A DNA stretch of 64,000 bases from Rhodothermus sp. GTDB lineage: Bacteria; Bacteroidota; Rhodothermia; Rhodothermales; Rhodothermaceae. Within the stretch, counting starts at the first letter, position 1, and each line of letters begins with the position of its first letter. The stretch lies in contig JAUZRN010000009.1 of assembly GCA_030950375.1 (NCBI GenBank), positions 1-64,000 of the forward strand, written 5' to 3'. Shown piece by piece: positions 42,720-54,101 of this stretch. Below the pieces are notes generated by a model that was given only the letters and a program-made list of their open reading frames with translations, was not told the DNA's origin and searched no databases. The position numbers and the translations under genes are program-made.

Positions 42720-43853
42720 ATGGAAGGCAGACTGCAAGTCGTTTATCGTCTGGCGGTTCCTGTAGAGGAACAGGGGGCGTTTGCACGGGCGTTGTTGCTG
42801 GAACAGACGGTGGAGACACCGGAAGAGGTGGCGCGGCGGGTGCCGGCGGTCCGGGAGCGTCTGATGGGTGAGATTGTAGAGCTGGAGCTGCTGGAAGGGG
42901 GGGGAGCGCGGCTGGCGTTGCGACTGCCTGTGGAGACGGCCGCCGTCGATCCAGCGCAGTTCCTGAATGTGCTCTTTGGCAATGCCTCGTTGCACGATCA
43001 GGTGTTGCTGGAGGATTTTGAGTTGCCACCGACTCTCCTGGAGCGTTTTCCGGGTCCCCGGTTTGGTATTGCGGGGGTACGCAAATGGCTGGGGGTGCCG
43101 GATCGGCCGTTGACGGCTTCGGCGCTGAAGCCTGTGGGGCTTTCGATGGATGAACTGGTGGTGCTCTGTCGAAGCCTGGCGGAGGGGGGAATCGACCTGA
43201 TCAAAGACGATCACTATTGGGGCGATCATTCGTTCGCGCCGTTTGAGCAGCGCGTGCGACGTTGTCAGGAGGTGGTGCAAGAAGTTTCAGCGCGGACCGG
43301 CCGACGCATCGTGTATGCACCGAGCCTGTCGGGTACACCTTCCGAGGTGTTGCGGCAGGCGGAAATTGCCCAGCGCTATGGGGTAGGAGCTGTGCTGGTA
43401 GCACCCATGTTGCTGGGCCTGCCGTTTTTCTATGAGTTCGTTACGCGCTATCTGGAAGTACCTGTACTGGCCCATCCCAGCTTTGCCGGAGCGCAGCGCA
43501 TCCGTCCGGAAACGCTGCTGGGAAAACTGTTTCGTCTCTTCGGGGCGGACATGGTCATTTTTCCGAGCTTTGGGGGACGGTTCAGCTATAGCCGGGCGAC
43601 CTGCCGGAAACTGGCCGAGCAGGCGCGTCGGCCCTGGGGAGCTTACCGACCTGCATTGCCGGTACCGGCCGGTGGCATGCAGGTGGAACGAGCGCGTGAG
43701 CTGATCGAGTTTTTTGGCCGCGATGTTATGCTGCTTATCGGAGGCAGTCTGTTACGGGCGCAACCAGGCCCGGAACTGACTGCTCGGGCACGTGCGCTGG
43801 TCGAAAGTGTCGTTGAGGCCGCTGCTGCGCTTTCCGACTCGGATTCTATTTAG
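42720..43853 (+). CDS. RuBisCO-like protein (form IV)
   Basis: 377 residues of the RuBisCO large-subunit family. Recognisable parts are FLNVLFGNASL, LTASALKPVGLS (Lys137, matching catalytic K175), GGIDLIKDDHYWGDH (Lys162-Asp163-Asp164-His165), HPSFAGA, FPSFGGRFSYS and VPAGGMQVERARELIEFFGRD. In true RuBisCO the metal motif is KDDE; here E204 is His. The partner of the R295 site is Pro and K177 is Val, so carboxylation is not expected. Form IV proteins act as enolases, isomerases or related enzymes in sulfur or sugar metabolism. No methionine-salvage genes are adjacent. Its stop overlaps the convergent M24 gene. Confidence 0.93.
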   Translation: MEGRLQVVYRLAVPVEEQGAFARALLLEQTVETPEEVARRVPAVRERLMGEIVELELLEGGGARLALRLPVETAAVDPAQFLNVLFGNASLHDQVLLEDFELPPTLLERFPGPRFGIAGVRKWLGVPDRPLTASALKPVGLSMDELVVLCRSLAEGGIDLIKDDHYWGDHSFAPFEQRVRRCQEVVQEVSARTGRRIVYAPSLSGTPSEVLRQAEIAQRYGVGAVLVAPMLLGLPFFYEFVTRYLEVPVLAHPSFAGAQRIRPETLLGKLFRLFGADMVIFPSFGGRFSYSRATCRKLAEQARRPWGAYRPALPVPAGGMQVERARELIEFFGRDVMLLIGGSLLRAQPGPELTARARALVESVVEAAAALSDSDSI

Positions 43854-44968
43854 TCCAGCTGGCGTAGTGTACGGGGATAGTCACTGAGTGTCTCAGCGCC
43901 CGTCTCGGTGATCAGCACGTCGTCTTCGATGCGAGCACCGCCACGTCCGGTCAGGTAAATACCAGGTTCGATAGTGAATAGCATGCCTGGCGCCAGAGGG
44001 TCGGTGTTGTCGCTCCGGATATACGGCGGTTCGTGGATTTCCAGACCGAGCCCGTGGCCGGTTCGATGGATGAAGTAGGGGCCATAGCCGGCCTGTTCGA
44101 TCACCTGGCGGGCAGTCTGGTCAACGGCGCCGGCGGGTATGCCTGGTCCGGCCTGGGCACGAGCTGCTTCGTTGGCTTCGAGGACGATCTGAGTAATGCG
44201 TAACAGCTCCTCATCCGGTGTACCGAAGGCAAACATGCGCGTCAGGTCGGCGCAGTAGCCTTCGATCCGAGCGCCCCAGTCGATCAGGATAAGGGTCGGA
44301 GGCGTAAGCGGGCGGTCGCCGGGTACGGCGTGCGGATTGGCACTTTCCGGGCCGAATGCTACGATGGGCGCAAAAGGGAGTTCAGGGTCGCTGCCGGCCC
44401 GCAGCAGCTGCAACGTGAGTTCGGCCGCTACCTCGCGTTCCGTGATGCCCGGACGAATCGCTGGAAGGGTAGCTTCGAGCGCCTTCCAGGCCACTTCCAG
44501 TGCACGGCGTGTGGCGGCAACCTCTGTCGGATCCTTCTGGCTGCGCAGGCGCCTGATCAAGGGTTCGGCCGAAGTGAATTGCAGCTCTGGAGCTGCCGTT
44601 TCCAGCAGTTGAAGCTCCAGCAAGCGAAACCACCGGGGTTCGACGCCAATGCGTGCCCGGCGGAGTCCACAGAAATGCAGGGCTCGGGCAAAGGCGTCAG
44701 ACCAGGCATTCGGGTTTTCCCCGTAGGGAAAGGCTTCGAGGGCTACCGGGAGGGTTTCCAGTTTGCCGGTTTCCAGTTCGGGTAGCACCAGGGCTGGCTG
44801 ACCTGAGGCCGGAAAGATTCCGACCACCGGACGTTCCGACAGGTGCACTTCAAGGCCCGTCAGATACGTCAGGGTAGGGCTGGCGTTCAATGCTACCGCC
44901 TCCAGGTCAGTAGGCTGCAACAGTTGTTGCAGACGTTGCAGGCGTTTCGTATAGGGTGTCTGGTTCAT
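43850..44968 (-). CDS. M24-family Xaa-Pro aminopeptidase/dipeptidase
   Basis: 372 residues from the ATG at 44968; the longer frame enters the divergent hemA promoter region. The creatinase-like N-terminal domain (ALNASPTLTYLTGLEVHLSERPVVGIF) is followed by the pita-bread catalytic domain with the five metal ligands in LILIDWGARIEGYCADLTR, FIHRTGHGLGLEIHEPP, FTIEPGIYL and ARIEDDVL. It releases N-terminal residues before proline. It diverges from hemA, with 181 nt between starts. Confidence 0.93.
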   Translation of the reverse strand: MNQTPYTKRLQRLQQLLQPTDLEAVALNASPTLTYLTGLEVHLSERPVVGIFPASGQPALVLPELETGKLETLPVALEAFPYGENPNAWSDAFARALHFCGLRRARIGVEPRWFRLLELQLLETAAPELQFTSAEPLIRRLRSQKDPTEVAATRRALEVAWKALEATLPAIRPGITEREVAAELTLQLLRAGSDPELPFAPIVAFGPESANPHAVPGDRPLTPPTLILIDWGARIEGYCADLTRMFAFGTPDEELLRITQIVLEANEAARAQAGPGIPAGAVDQTARQVIEQAGYGPYFIHRTGHGLGLEIHEPPYIRSDNTDPLAPGMLFTIEPGIYLTGRGGARIEDDVLITETGAETLSDYPRTLRQLD

Positions 44969-45095
44969 GACTGCGAGGTTCGTTTTGAAACAGGTGACCG
45001 AAGCAAAAATAACGTCGGGCTGGATAAAAACGGGTGGTCCGAAGCTTGCCGGGAGAGCTTTCAGCAACCTTTTACAGGGATTCACGAACTCCGAG

Positions 45096-45103
45096 TATCT
45101 TTG
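45096..45103 (+). promoter_or_regulatory. Bacteroidota-type -7 element upstream of hemA
   Basis: TATCTTTG matches TAnnTTTG exactly, 46 nt before the hemA ATG. A TTTT/TTTA tract lies about 21 nt upstream, near the expected -33 TTTG position. Confidence 0.55.
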
Positions 45104-45149
45104 TCCGTATTTTCCGGAAACAGAGCGGAGCAAATGGGCGCAGGGTAGC

Positions 45150-46532
45150 ATGCAGGGGTTCCATGCGCTGGGTTTGAATCACGAAACGGCTTCGGTGCAG
45201 GTGCGCGAAGCGTTTGCCCTGGACCGAGCAGCCAAGCGGCGGCTCTATGCGGTCTGGCAGACAGTGCGAGGTGGTGAGCTGATGCTGGTCTCGACCTGCA
45301 ATCGGACGGAGGCTTATCTGTACGGCACCGAAGAAGACGTCGCGGCGATTCGTGCTCTGCTGAGCCAGCATGCGCATCGTCCCTGGCCTGCGCCTGAAAG
45401 TTTTCATTTTCAGGATGAAGCTGCCCTGCGCCATGTGCTGGAAGTAACCTGTGGGTTGCGTTCGCAGGTGCTGGGCGATGCGCAGATCTTCAACCAGATC
45501 AAGGAAGACTATCGGCTGGCAGTCGAGGTGGGCAGTGTGGGCACCGTCATGCATCGGCTGCTGCATAGCGCCTTTCGGGCAGCCAAGCGCGTAGCGGCCG
45601 AGACGGACCTGCATCAGGGGACCACGTCGGTAGCTGGCGTGGCTGTCCAGGCTGCCCGTCGCTACTTTGCCCGACGTGGGCATCCGGATCTGGAAGGCGT
45701 GCGTGTGCTGGTGGTCGGGGCCGGTGAGATGGCGCGACTGGCTATAGAAGCGCTGCGCGCACTGGCGCCTTCCGTGCTGATGCTGACCAACCGTACGCAG
45801 CGGCATGTCCATGCCCTGGCACAACCCGGGGAGCAGGTAGTGCCCTGGTCGCAACGGGCGCAGGCGCTGATGCGTTGTGATCTGGTGATAGTGGCCACCA
45901 GCGCCTCGGCTCCTGTACTGACGGCCGATATGATGCCCTCGCGTTGCCCGGACCATCCGCTATTGCTGATTGACCTTTCCATTCCGCGCAACATTGATCC
46001 GGCCATCGATCGGCTGCCAGGCTATCAGGTGTTAGACCTGGATGCTATCAAGGCTCGTCAGGCGGCCGTAGAGGCCCGGCGACACCGGGCGGCCCGGCAG
46101 GCCCGCAAGATCTGTGAGGAATTGCTACACGAGTTCGTCACCTGGTATTTCCATCAGCAGGCGCTGCAGCCGGCTATCCAGGCCATCCGAGAGACGTTTG
46201 AAACCATCCGACGTCAGGAGATCGAGCGGCATCATCGACGCTTTTCAGAGGTTGACCGGGAAGAGCTGGACCGGCTAACGCGCTCGATCATGCAGAAGCT
46301 GTTGGCCATTCCCATTGTGCGACTAAAGAGTATAGATCCGGACAGTATTGACTTCGTTCGGGGCATTCAATTGTTGGCCCAGCTCTTTAGCCGGCCCAGC
46401 TGTGAAGAAGTGCGGGACGTTCAACTACCTGAGCCCTCGGTGTTGCTGGAGCGAGTGCGGGCGCAGGGACCCTGTCCGTTTGTTGAACGACCAGGTGCCT
46501 CTCCGGAACGTTCTGCCACGGATCATGCCTGA
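45150..46532 (+). CDS. hemA: Glutamyl-tRNA reductase HemA
   Basis: 460 residues from the ATG at 45150, chosen because MQGFHALGLNHETASVQVRE is the family N-terminus. The nucleophile is Cys50 in MLVSTCNRTEAYLYG. LRSQVLGDAQIFNQIKEDY is the substrate-domain helix, and GVRVLVVGAGEMARLAIEAL the NADPH site. The C-terminal dimerisation helices include LTRSIMQKLLAIPIVRLK. It converts glutamyl-tRNA to glutamate-1-semialdehyde, the first step of tetrapyrrole synthesis. hemC starts 8 nt before its stop. Confidence 0.97.
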   Translation: MQGFHALGLNHETASVQVREAFALDRAAKRRLYAVWQTVRGGELMLVSTCNRTEAYLYGTEEDVAAIRALLSQHAHRPWPAPESFHFQDEAALRHVLEVTCGLRSQVLGDAQIFNQIKEDYRLAVEVGSVGTVMHRLLHSAFRAAKRVAAETDLHQGTTSVAGVAVQAARRYFARRGHPDLEGVRVLVVGAGEMARLAIEALRALAPSVLMLTNRTQRHVHALAQPGEQVVPWSQRAQALMRCDLVIVATSASAPVLTADMMPSRCPDHPLLLIDLSIPRNIDPAIDRLPGYQVLDLDAIKARQAAVEARRHRAARQARKICEELLHEFVTWYFHQQALQPAIQAIRETFETIRRQEIERHHRRFSEVDREELDRLTRSIMQKLLAIPIVRLKSIDPDSIDFVRGIQLLAQLFSRPSCEEVRDVQLPEPSVLLERVRAQGPCPFVERPGASPERSATDHA

Positions 46533-47478
46533 GCCTACGCTGACTCTCGGCACGCGCGGGAGTGCACTGGCGCTGCAGCAGGCTACTCTGATACGTTCTT
46601 TTCTGGAGGCGCATGGGGTGTCGGTGCGGGTGGAGGTGATCCGTACGACTGGCGATCACATCCAGGATGTACCGCTGGCGAAGATCGGGGGGAAGGGGTT
46701 ATTCACCAAAGAGCTGGATCAGGCACTGCTGGCAGGACGTATTGACCTGGCCGTTCATTCGCTGAAGGATCTGCCTACCGAAATGCCCGAGGGGCTGGTA
46801 GTGGCTGCTGTTCCGGAGCGTGCGGCCCCCTGGGATGTCTTTGTGGCTCATCCAGATTTTCCGGGTCGGTTGGAAGCCCTGCCGAAGGGGGCTGTGGTCG
46901 CCACGTCGTCGCTGCGGCGTCAGGCGCAGCTGCGGGCCTGGCGGCCGGATCTGCAGGTAGTGCCGGTGCGTGGTAACGTCGATACGCGGTTACGCAAGCT
47001 GAAGGCAGAAGGATGGCATGGGCTGATTCTGGCCGAAGCCGGGCTGGTTCGTCTTGGGTTGCAGAAGCATGTGCGCCAGCGTATTGCGCCTGAAATCATG
47101 TTACCGGCGGTCGGGCAGGGGGCCCTGGGTGTGGTCTGTGCCGAGGCCAATCGGGAAGTATGTCGGCTGCTGCAAACACTGCATCATGCACCTACGGCGG
47201 CTGCCGTGCAGGCTGAGCGTGCATTTCTGCATGCGCTGCAGGGGGGGTGCCAGGTACCTGTGGCGGCACTGGGCATGGTGGATACGGACGGGACACTGAT
47301 ATTGCGGGGGCGGGTGGTTTCGCTTGACGGCCGACGGCTGGTAGAAGACGTGCAGCAGGGGGCTATGACGACGCCGGAGGCTGTCGGGGAGGCCCTGGCC
47401 TCCAGATTGCTGGACCGAGGGGCTCGTGCCATTCTGGAAGAAATACGCGGGAAGCTACAGTCGGACGCTTCCGTATAG
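46525..47478 (+). CDS. hemC: Porphobilinogen deaminase (hydroxymethylbilane synthase) HemC
   Basis: 317 residues from the ATG at 46525, inside the 3' end of hemA. Key parts are LGTRGSALALQQATLI, IGGKGLFTKELDQALL, DLAVHSLKDLPTEMPEGL, ATSSLRRQAQL and RGNVDTRLRKL. Cys242 in LQGGCQVPVAA is the dipyrromethane-cofactor attachment site. It assembles four porphobilinogen units to hydroxymethylbilane. It is the second gene of the hemACD operon. Confidence 0.97.
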   Translation: MPEPTLTLGTRGSALALQQATLIRSFLEAHGVSVRVEVIRTTGDHIQDVPLAKIGGKGLFTKELDQALLAGRIDLAVHSLKDLPTEMPEGLVVAAVPERAAPWDVFVAHPDFPGRLEALPKGAVVATSSLRRQAQLRAWRPDLQVVPVRGNVDTRLRKLKAEGWHGLILAEAGLVRLGLQKHVRQRIAPEIMLPAVGQGALGVVCAEANREVCRLLQTLHHAPTAAAVQAERAFLHALQGGCQVPVAALGMVDTDGTLILRGRVVSLDGRRLVEDVQQGAMTTPEAVGEALASRLLDRGARAILEEIRGKLQSDASV

Positions 47479-47493
47479 AACAGTCTGGAGCGC

Positions 47494-48216
47494 ATGGCCA
47501 GGCATGTGGTTTATCTGTTGCGGGCGGAAGCTACTGCTTCAGATCCTTTTGTCGAGCAATTGCAGGCGGCTGGTTATCGGCCGTTTGTGCTGCCGGTGCT
47601 GGCCATAGACTGGGTGAATACAGAATCCCTGCGGGCAGTGTTGGCCCATCCTGAAGCCTACAGCGGTTTGATCTTCACCAGTCCACGGGCTGTAGAGGCC
47701 GTACGCAGGCTGAGGATACCACTGGAAGCGTGGAGGGCGCATCCGGTGTATGTGGTGGGACCGCGTACCGCGGCGGCCGTTCGGAAGATCGGCTGGGAGC
47801 CCCGGGGAGAAACAGCAGGTTCTGGCAGTGAACTGGCCCGTCGGATACAGCAGGGAGCTCGTCCGATCTGCCCCTTGCTGTTCCTGTGTGGAGCGCGACG
47901 ACGGGAGGAACTGCCGACGCTGTTGCGCGCAGCAGGCTTTCCCCTGCAGGAGCTGGTCGTCTATGCGACCAGACCCCTGGTACCTGCATTGCCTGCGGAA
48001 GCGCCGACGCCCGACTGGGTCGTATTTTTCAGTCCGTCCGGGCTGGAGGCGGCGCGTCGTCTGCCGTTGGCCTGGGAGCAGGTGCACGTGGCAGCCATTG
48101 GCCCCACGACGGCTGTTGCATTGCAGCAAGAAGGACTGCGAGTAGCTGCCGTTGCCCGGACACCAACACCGGAAGGATTACTGGCAGCCATGCAGGAAGT
48201 AACGGATCGGATATGA
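47494..48216 (+). CDS. hemD: Uroporphyrinogen-III synthase HemD
   Basis: 240 residues with the loosely conserved HemD pattern: [69 protein letters not shown], and [16 protein letters not shown] followed by [16 protein letters not shown]. It closes hydroxymethylbilane to uroporphyrinogen III. The fold is expected to be bilobal. The position directly after hemC strengthens the call. Confidence 0.93.
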
Positions 48217-53627: not shown

Positions 53628-54101
53628 TCAGAGGCGCACGTACGGACCGATAATCGGGTGCCGGCGGAGTTGTTCGGCTTCTTCAGGCGTGGGACGCGTT
53701 GGACGATCCCGGTTTACGGCTACCATGCACAGAAAGCCGAGCGTTTCGTTTTCATCGGCCTGAAATTGATGCCAGGTCCAGGCCGGGATATGAATCAGGT
53801 CGAAGGGGGCGATTTCGCAAATTTGCTCGCCCACGATAGCGCGTCCCCGACCACGCAGAATCAGGACCGCGTGCACATGCGCGTGTCGTTCGAAGGTAGA
53901 GTAGCCGCCTGGTGCCACTTCAAAGTAGCGCAGCTCGGCCGGAAGGCCACTTTCAGGTCCGAACAGCACCTGGCGGGTAATGTCGCGAAAGTGCGTTCCT
54001 TCGGGCTTGTACTGCTTGAGCGGAACGGTTTCCCAGCGAAATCCTTCGACGTCAGGTTGAAAACGTCGGCAGGTAGCCGGAAGTGTCTGAACAGCAGCCA
54101 T
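53628..54101 (-). CDS. Cupin-domain protein
   Basis: 157 residues with a single cupin barrel. Motif 1 is GGYSTFERHAHVHAVLILRGRG, with a histidine set H-x-H-x-H, and motif 2 is DLIHIPAWTWHQFQA with the last histidine ligand. A mononuclear metal site is likely. The substrate is unknown. It converges on the SPOR gene with 4 nt between stops. Confidence 0.88.
   Translation of the reverse strand: MAAVQTLPATCRRFQPDVEGFRWETVPLKQYKPEGTHFRDITRQVLFGPESGLPAELRYFEVAPGGYSTFERHAHVHAVLILRGRGRAIVGEQICEIAPFDLIHIPAWTWHQFQADENETLGFLCMVAVNRDRPTRPTPEEAEQLRRHPIIGPYVRL

Follow-up and report, generated by a model that had tools for sequence, protein, structure and literature searches.

A KDDH-type RubisCO-like protein and its cupin partner in Rhodothermus: a predicted 5-methylthioribulose-1-phosphate 1,3-isomerase of the MTA-isoprenoid shunt

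The window analyzed here is a 64,000-nucleotide stretch of Rhodothermus DNA. An open reading frame on its forward strand (42720-43853) starts with ATG, has a purine-rich ggaggg upstream, and encodes a protein of 377 amino acids that belongs to the RubisCO family (Pfam RuBisCO_large, 70 bits). By profile, tree, alignment and fold it is a RubisCO-like protein (RLP) of the KDDH ("DeepYkr") clade and a predicted 5-methylthioribulose-1-phosphate 1,3-isomerase. Two Rhodothermus MAGs encode proteins 96 and 86% identical to it, and its own genome holds no second RLP or RubisCO. On the reverse strand at 53628-54101 is a cupin that homology, its Cupin_2 domain and co-occurrence with the RLP mark as a predicted 1-methylthioxylulose-5-phosphate methylsulfurylase (Rru_A2000 family). 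A cluster of hemA-, hemC- and hemD-like genes at 44967-48216 follows closely after the RLP; other Rhodothermus genomes preserve this gene order, and the cluster has no apparent functional link to the RLP.

We numbered the active-site residues by aligning the RLP with spinach RbcL, MtnW structures and relatives. The metal-site motif is K162-D163-D164-H165 (43203-43214, forward strand). The first-pass annotation had reported KDDH in place of KDDE with the lysine and both aspartates kept, and the sequence and the spinach alignment agree with it. Residues retained from spinach RbcL are K175 (K137), K201 (K162), D203 (D164) and H294 (H252), together with the glycines G381 (G319) and G403/G404 (G341/G342). 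The replacements are E204 to H165, R295 to P253, H298 to A256, H327 to I280, K334 to R287 and S379 to A317. Since five of the six RubisCO catalytic residues (K175, E204, R295, H327, K334 and S379) are replaced, the RLP is almost certainly no CO2 fixer, as the annotation had also held.

Two other residue calls in that annotation need adjusting. K177 had been described as replaced by valine; the position is better explained by the loss of one residue (KP-VG), the valine being next to the gap. The proline at the R295 position is there (P253), but MtnW has proline too (2OEK, 2ZVI, 4NAS), so this residue does not separate the RLP from MtnW. What does separate them is H165, R287 and A317, where MtnW has the glutamate of KDDE and serines at the 334 and 379 positions. 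All 28 distinct closer relatives that were compared carry KDDH, as do four proteins from alphaproteobacterial plasmids, whereas Photo-type and other RLPs of the same relative set have KDDE. Judged by these alignments, KDDH is a diagnostic signature of a whole RLP clade and no peculiarity of this protein.

The closest structure by sequence is PDB 3qfw, an RLP from R. palustris (phmmer E 5.7e-92). It is also the best match of the predicted fold (TM 0.81, E 7.5e-34), for which the structure model, built with four sequences, has moderate confidence (mean pLDDT 73). The two proteins are only about 41% identical overall, yet their active sites agree at 14 of 15 compared positions; the exception is the H327 position, with valine in 3QFW and isoleucine here, and these two residues alternate at that position within the KDDH clade. 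In a maximum-likelihood tree of 30 proteins, in which the PDB proteins are represented by segments copied from HMMER output, all KDDH proteins form one clade (support 100/99) that is sister to MtnW (87/90), and the RLP and 3QFW share a sub-clade (99/98). The long branches of spinach, L038 and L039 are placed unsurely, which does not touch the KDDH clade. Photo-type RLPs (Chlorobium, R. palustris RLP2) have the RubisCO-like fold in common with our protein but fall in a different clade, at 22-23% identity, with KDDE and with phenylalanine at the R295 position.

R. palustris has two RLPs (PMC5893883). One of them, RLP1, belongs to the DeepYkr clade, shares 53% identity with the R. rubrum RLP, and has an assayed 5-methylthioribulose-1-phosphate 1,3-isomerase activity with a kcat of 1.3 per s; a mutant in the same study accumulates the isomerase substrate (PMC5893883). 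In the PDB, R. palustris RLPs are represented by two structures: 3qfw, titled as an RLP of that species, and 2qyg, titled as rlp2. Because 2qyg accounts for the second of the two RLPs, 3qfw should be RLP1, and we take it as most likely RPA2169 on these titles and the RLP count. The reaction had been called open in the first-pass annotation; the protein instead groups, with the same residue set, in a subgroup that most likely has an assayed member, which is the outcome that the annotation itself had named as refuting its reading.

The same annotation saw no methionine-salvage gene adjacent to the RLP. The cupin is nevertheless within the window, some 10 kb away. We found it with a query taken from a Terrirubrum plasmid, where a cupin adjoins a KDDH RLP. 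Its best PDB match is 3jzv, "uncharacterized protein Rru_A2000" from R. rubrum (E 2.7e-46), and Rru_A2000 is the MTXu-5P sulfurylase of the MTA-isoprenoid shunt (PMC4958253). Clear KDDH-clade RLPs and clear cupins occur in an identical set of 26 of the 296 genomes of the phylum and in no others, a count that leaves out weaker, probably unrelated cupin matches in six further genomes. The hypergeometric value for this co-occurrence, 7e-38, overstates the association because the genomes are related. The pair does, however, span many families, in some of which one relative has both genes and others have neither. In 17 of the 26 genomes, and likewise at a Rhodocyclaceae locus (L004), the two genes are on the same strand and less than 600 bp apart. 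Their separation by 9.8 kb on opposite strands is a feature shared across Rhodothermus, with the genes on different contigs in one genome (G151), and sets the genus apart from the R. palustris and R. rubrum systems.

On rhizobial plasmids it is mtnK-mtnA that stands beside the RLP. Alphaproteobacterial plasmids of Pararhizobium and Mariluticola (L069:2463-7894 and L070:2456-7876) carry mtnK-mtnA, a split transketolase/DXS-like pair and a KDDH RLP in that order, with no cupin annotated nearby. The pathway may possibly continue differently there, through a split TPP enzyme that cleaves the methylthio-ketose phosphate. A literature search on a transketolase branch of MTA salvage returned nothing relevant.

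A search for co-occurring genes elsewhere in the genome, as the first-pass annotation had proposed, was productive. mtnA, for methylthioribose-1-phosphate isomerase, is at G000:C1:24618-25586 and scores 431 bits, where the cut-off is 279. Two O-acetylhomoserine (OAH) sulfhydrylase loci of the Met17 type exceed the TIGR01326 cut-off, and DXR is present as well. The genome has no ARD/MtnD, which is the enzyme of canonical salvage that depends on oxygen.

The enzyme by which MTA would enter the pathway is less certain. No protein in the genome matches the curated MTA phosphorylase (MtnP) over cut-off, a difference from the R. palustris and R. rubrum systems. The genome has two PF01048 proteins, both of which the curated models classify as PNP-type, and they reach 82-83 bits to MTAP (cut-off 274.85). 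Their base-binding motifs are ITDECFPD in one (L035:1468-2334) and ITNMAAG in the other (L036:1474-2322), a difference that suggests, at the level of sequence, that the two divide amino- and oxo-purine substrates between them. In L035 an aspartate replaces the asparagine of the PNP motif, which we take to be the residue that contacts the 6-oxo group. A change from asparagine to aspartate in PNPs favours adenine nucleosides. Since Thermus also has a PNP specific for 6-aminopurines (PMC11430614), L035 is a plausible candidate for the MTA phosphorylase. A route through an MTA deaminase was considered and dropped, as none was recognised in the six Amidohydro_1 loci scanned (dihydroorotase, imidazolonepropionase and unclassified proteins).

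We conclude with high confidence that the RLP is the 5-methylthio-D-ribulose-1-phosphate 1,3-isomerase of an MTA-isoprenoid shunt like that of Rhodospirillum and Rhodopseudomonas. The assignment is built on the gene, its residue set, its clade, the partner genes and their co-occurrence; catalytic activity and flux are what we infer from these. The closest known systems are those of R. palustris RLP1 and R. rubrum Rru_A1998: our protein has the KDDH metal site and nearly all other compared residues of 3QFW, falls in the same clade, and likewise comes with an Rru_A2000-type cupin.

It could be argued that, once the operon had been split up in Rhodothermus, the RLP diverged and took on another sugar-phosphate reaction, whether isomerisation, epimerisation or decarboxylation. 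The split of the RLP-cupin operon across the genus and the uncertain MTA entry enzyme would fit such a history, but the active-site set is unchanged relative to both 3QFW and relatives with an intact operon, and the cupin is retained in every one of the five Rhodothermus genomes in the phylum set (5/5), so we regard this as very unlikely. A 2,3-diketo-5-methylthiopentyl-1-phosphate enolase (MtnW/YkrW) of Bacillus-type methionine salvage with an altered metal ligand is less credible still and can practically be discounted, as the annotation had also concluded: MtnW shares methionine salvage and the R295-site proline with our protein, is its sister group and supplies its best NCBIfam matches, but those scores (198 and 145 bits) are far under the cut-offs (409 and 513.6), the H, R and A noted above differ from MtnW, and MtnD, which acts downstream of MtnW, is missing. 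Across the MtnW, OiaX and RubisCO models, the protein is far below every cut-off.

As an isomerase of the shunt, the RLP would act within the following predicted route. MTA would be phosphorolysed to 5-methylthioribose-1-phosphate, presumably by a phosphorylase such as that discussed above, and MtnA would convert this to 5-methylthioribulose-1-phosphate. The RLP would then isomerise it to 1-methylthioxylulose-5-phosphate by shifting the carbonyl from C2 further along the carbon chain, to the atom that is counted as C2 once the product is renumbered. In this chemistry a proton would be transferred on an enediolate bound at the KDDH metal site, and no CO2 would be added: most likely a metal-bound enediolate is formed as in RubisCO's first step and the reaction is ended by reprotonation, a mechanism that reportedly comes from work on R. 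rubrum. His165 would occupy the site of RubisCO's third acidic ligand and may serve as a metal ligand or in acid-base catalysis. The cupin would next remove the methylthio group to give methanethiol and 1-deoxyxylulose-5-phosphate (DXP). A Met17-type sulfhydrylase would return the methanethiol to methionine, and DXP would pass to the MEP pathway, for which DXR is present, or to thiamine synthesis, for which ThiG is present (G000:C13:70163-70900).

The supply of DXP itself raises a separate question. The genome has no canonical DXS; its DXS-like matches are a transketolase and pyruvate-dehydrogenase E1-type proteins. DXS was not found at E <= 1e-60 in Rhodothermus and much of its order, while it is over cut-off in 254 of the 296 genomes of the phylum. 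DXR is present in all 60 genomes of the order, and a mevalonate pathway in Rhodothermus was dropped from consideration on that count. The DXR of this genome is on the same contig as the window (G000:C9:87880-88260), beside genes that we name rseP-, uppS- and bamA-like from an ORF reading.

One could propose that the RLP-cupin shunt is the main or sole DXP source in Rhodothermus, with polyamine-derived MTA feeding isoprenoids and thiamine, but we consider this unlikely. Members of the order that have no RLP are also without DXS and yet keep DXR, and the presence of ThiG across the order does not track that of the RLP; we therefore abandoned replacement of DXS by the shunt as a main claim. Because relatives lacking the RLP have the same gap, the order probably has some other source of DXP. 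Three fused E1-type TPP enzymes of this genome (L101, L102 and L104, among loci L101-L107) are candidate DXP sources. A literature search on DXS-less Rhodothermales returned nothing relevant.

The RLP is thus ordinary in kind. The DeepYkr family is already known; the host group, here a thermophilic member of the Rhodothermota, is new, and the expected partner is present. On our reading, the KDDH RLP and its cupin bring Rhodothermus, and with it about 25 further sampled genomes of the Rhodothermota, into the range of the MTA-isoprenoid shunt. Neither enzyme is covered by the curated models now available, and the co-occurrence of the two offers a clean annotation rule. Should DXS prove to be truly missing, Rhodothermus would be well suited to asking how much DXP the shunt supplies.
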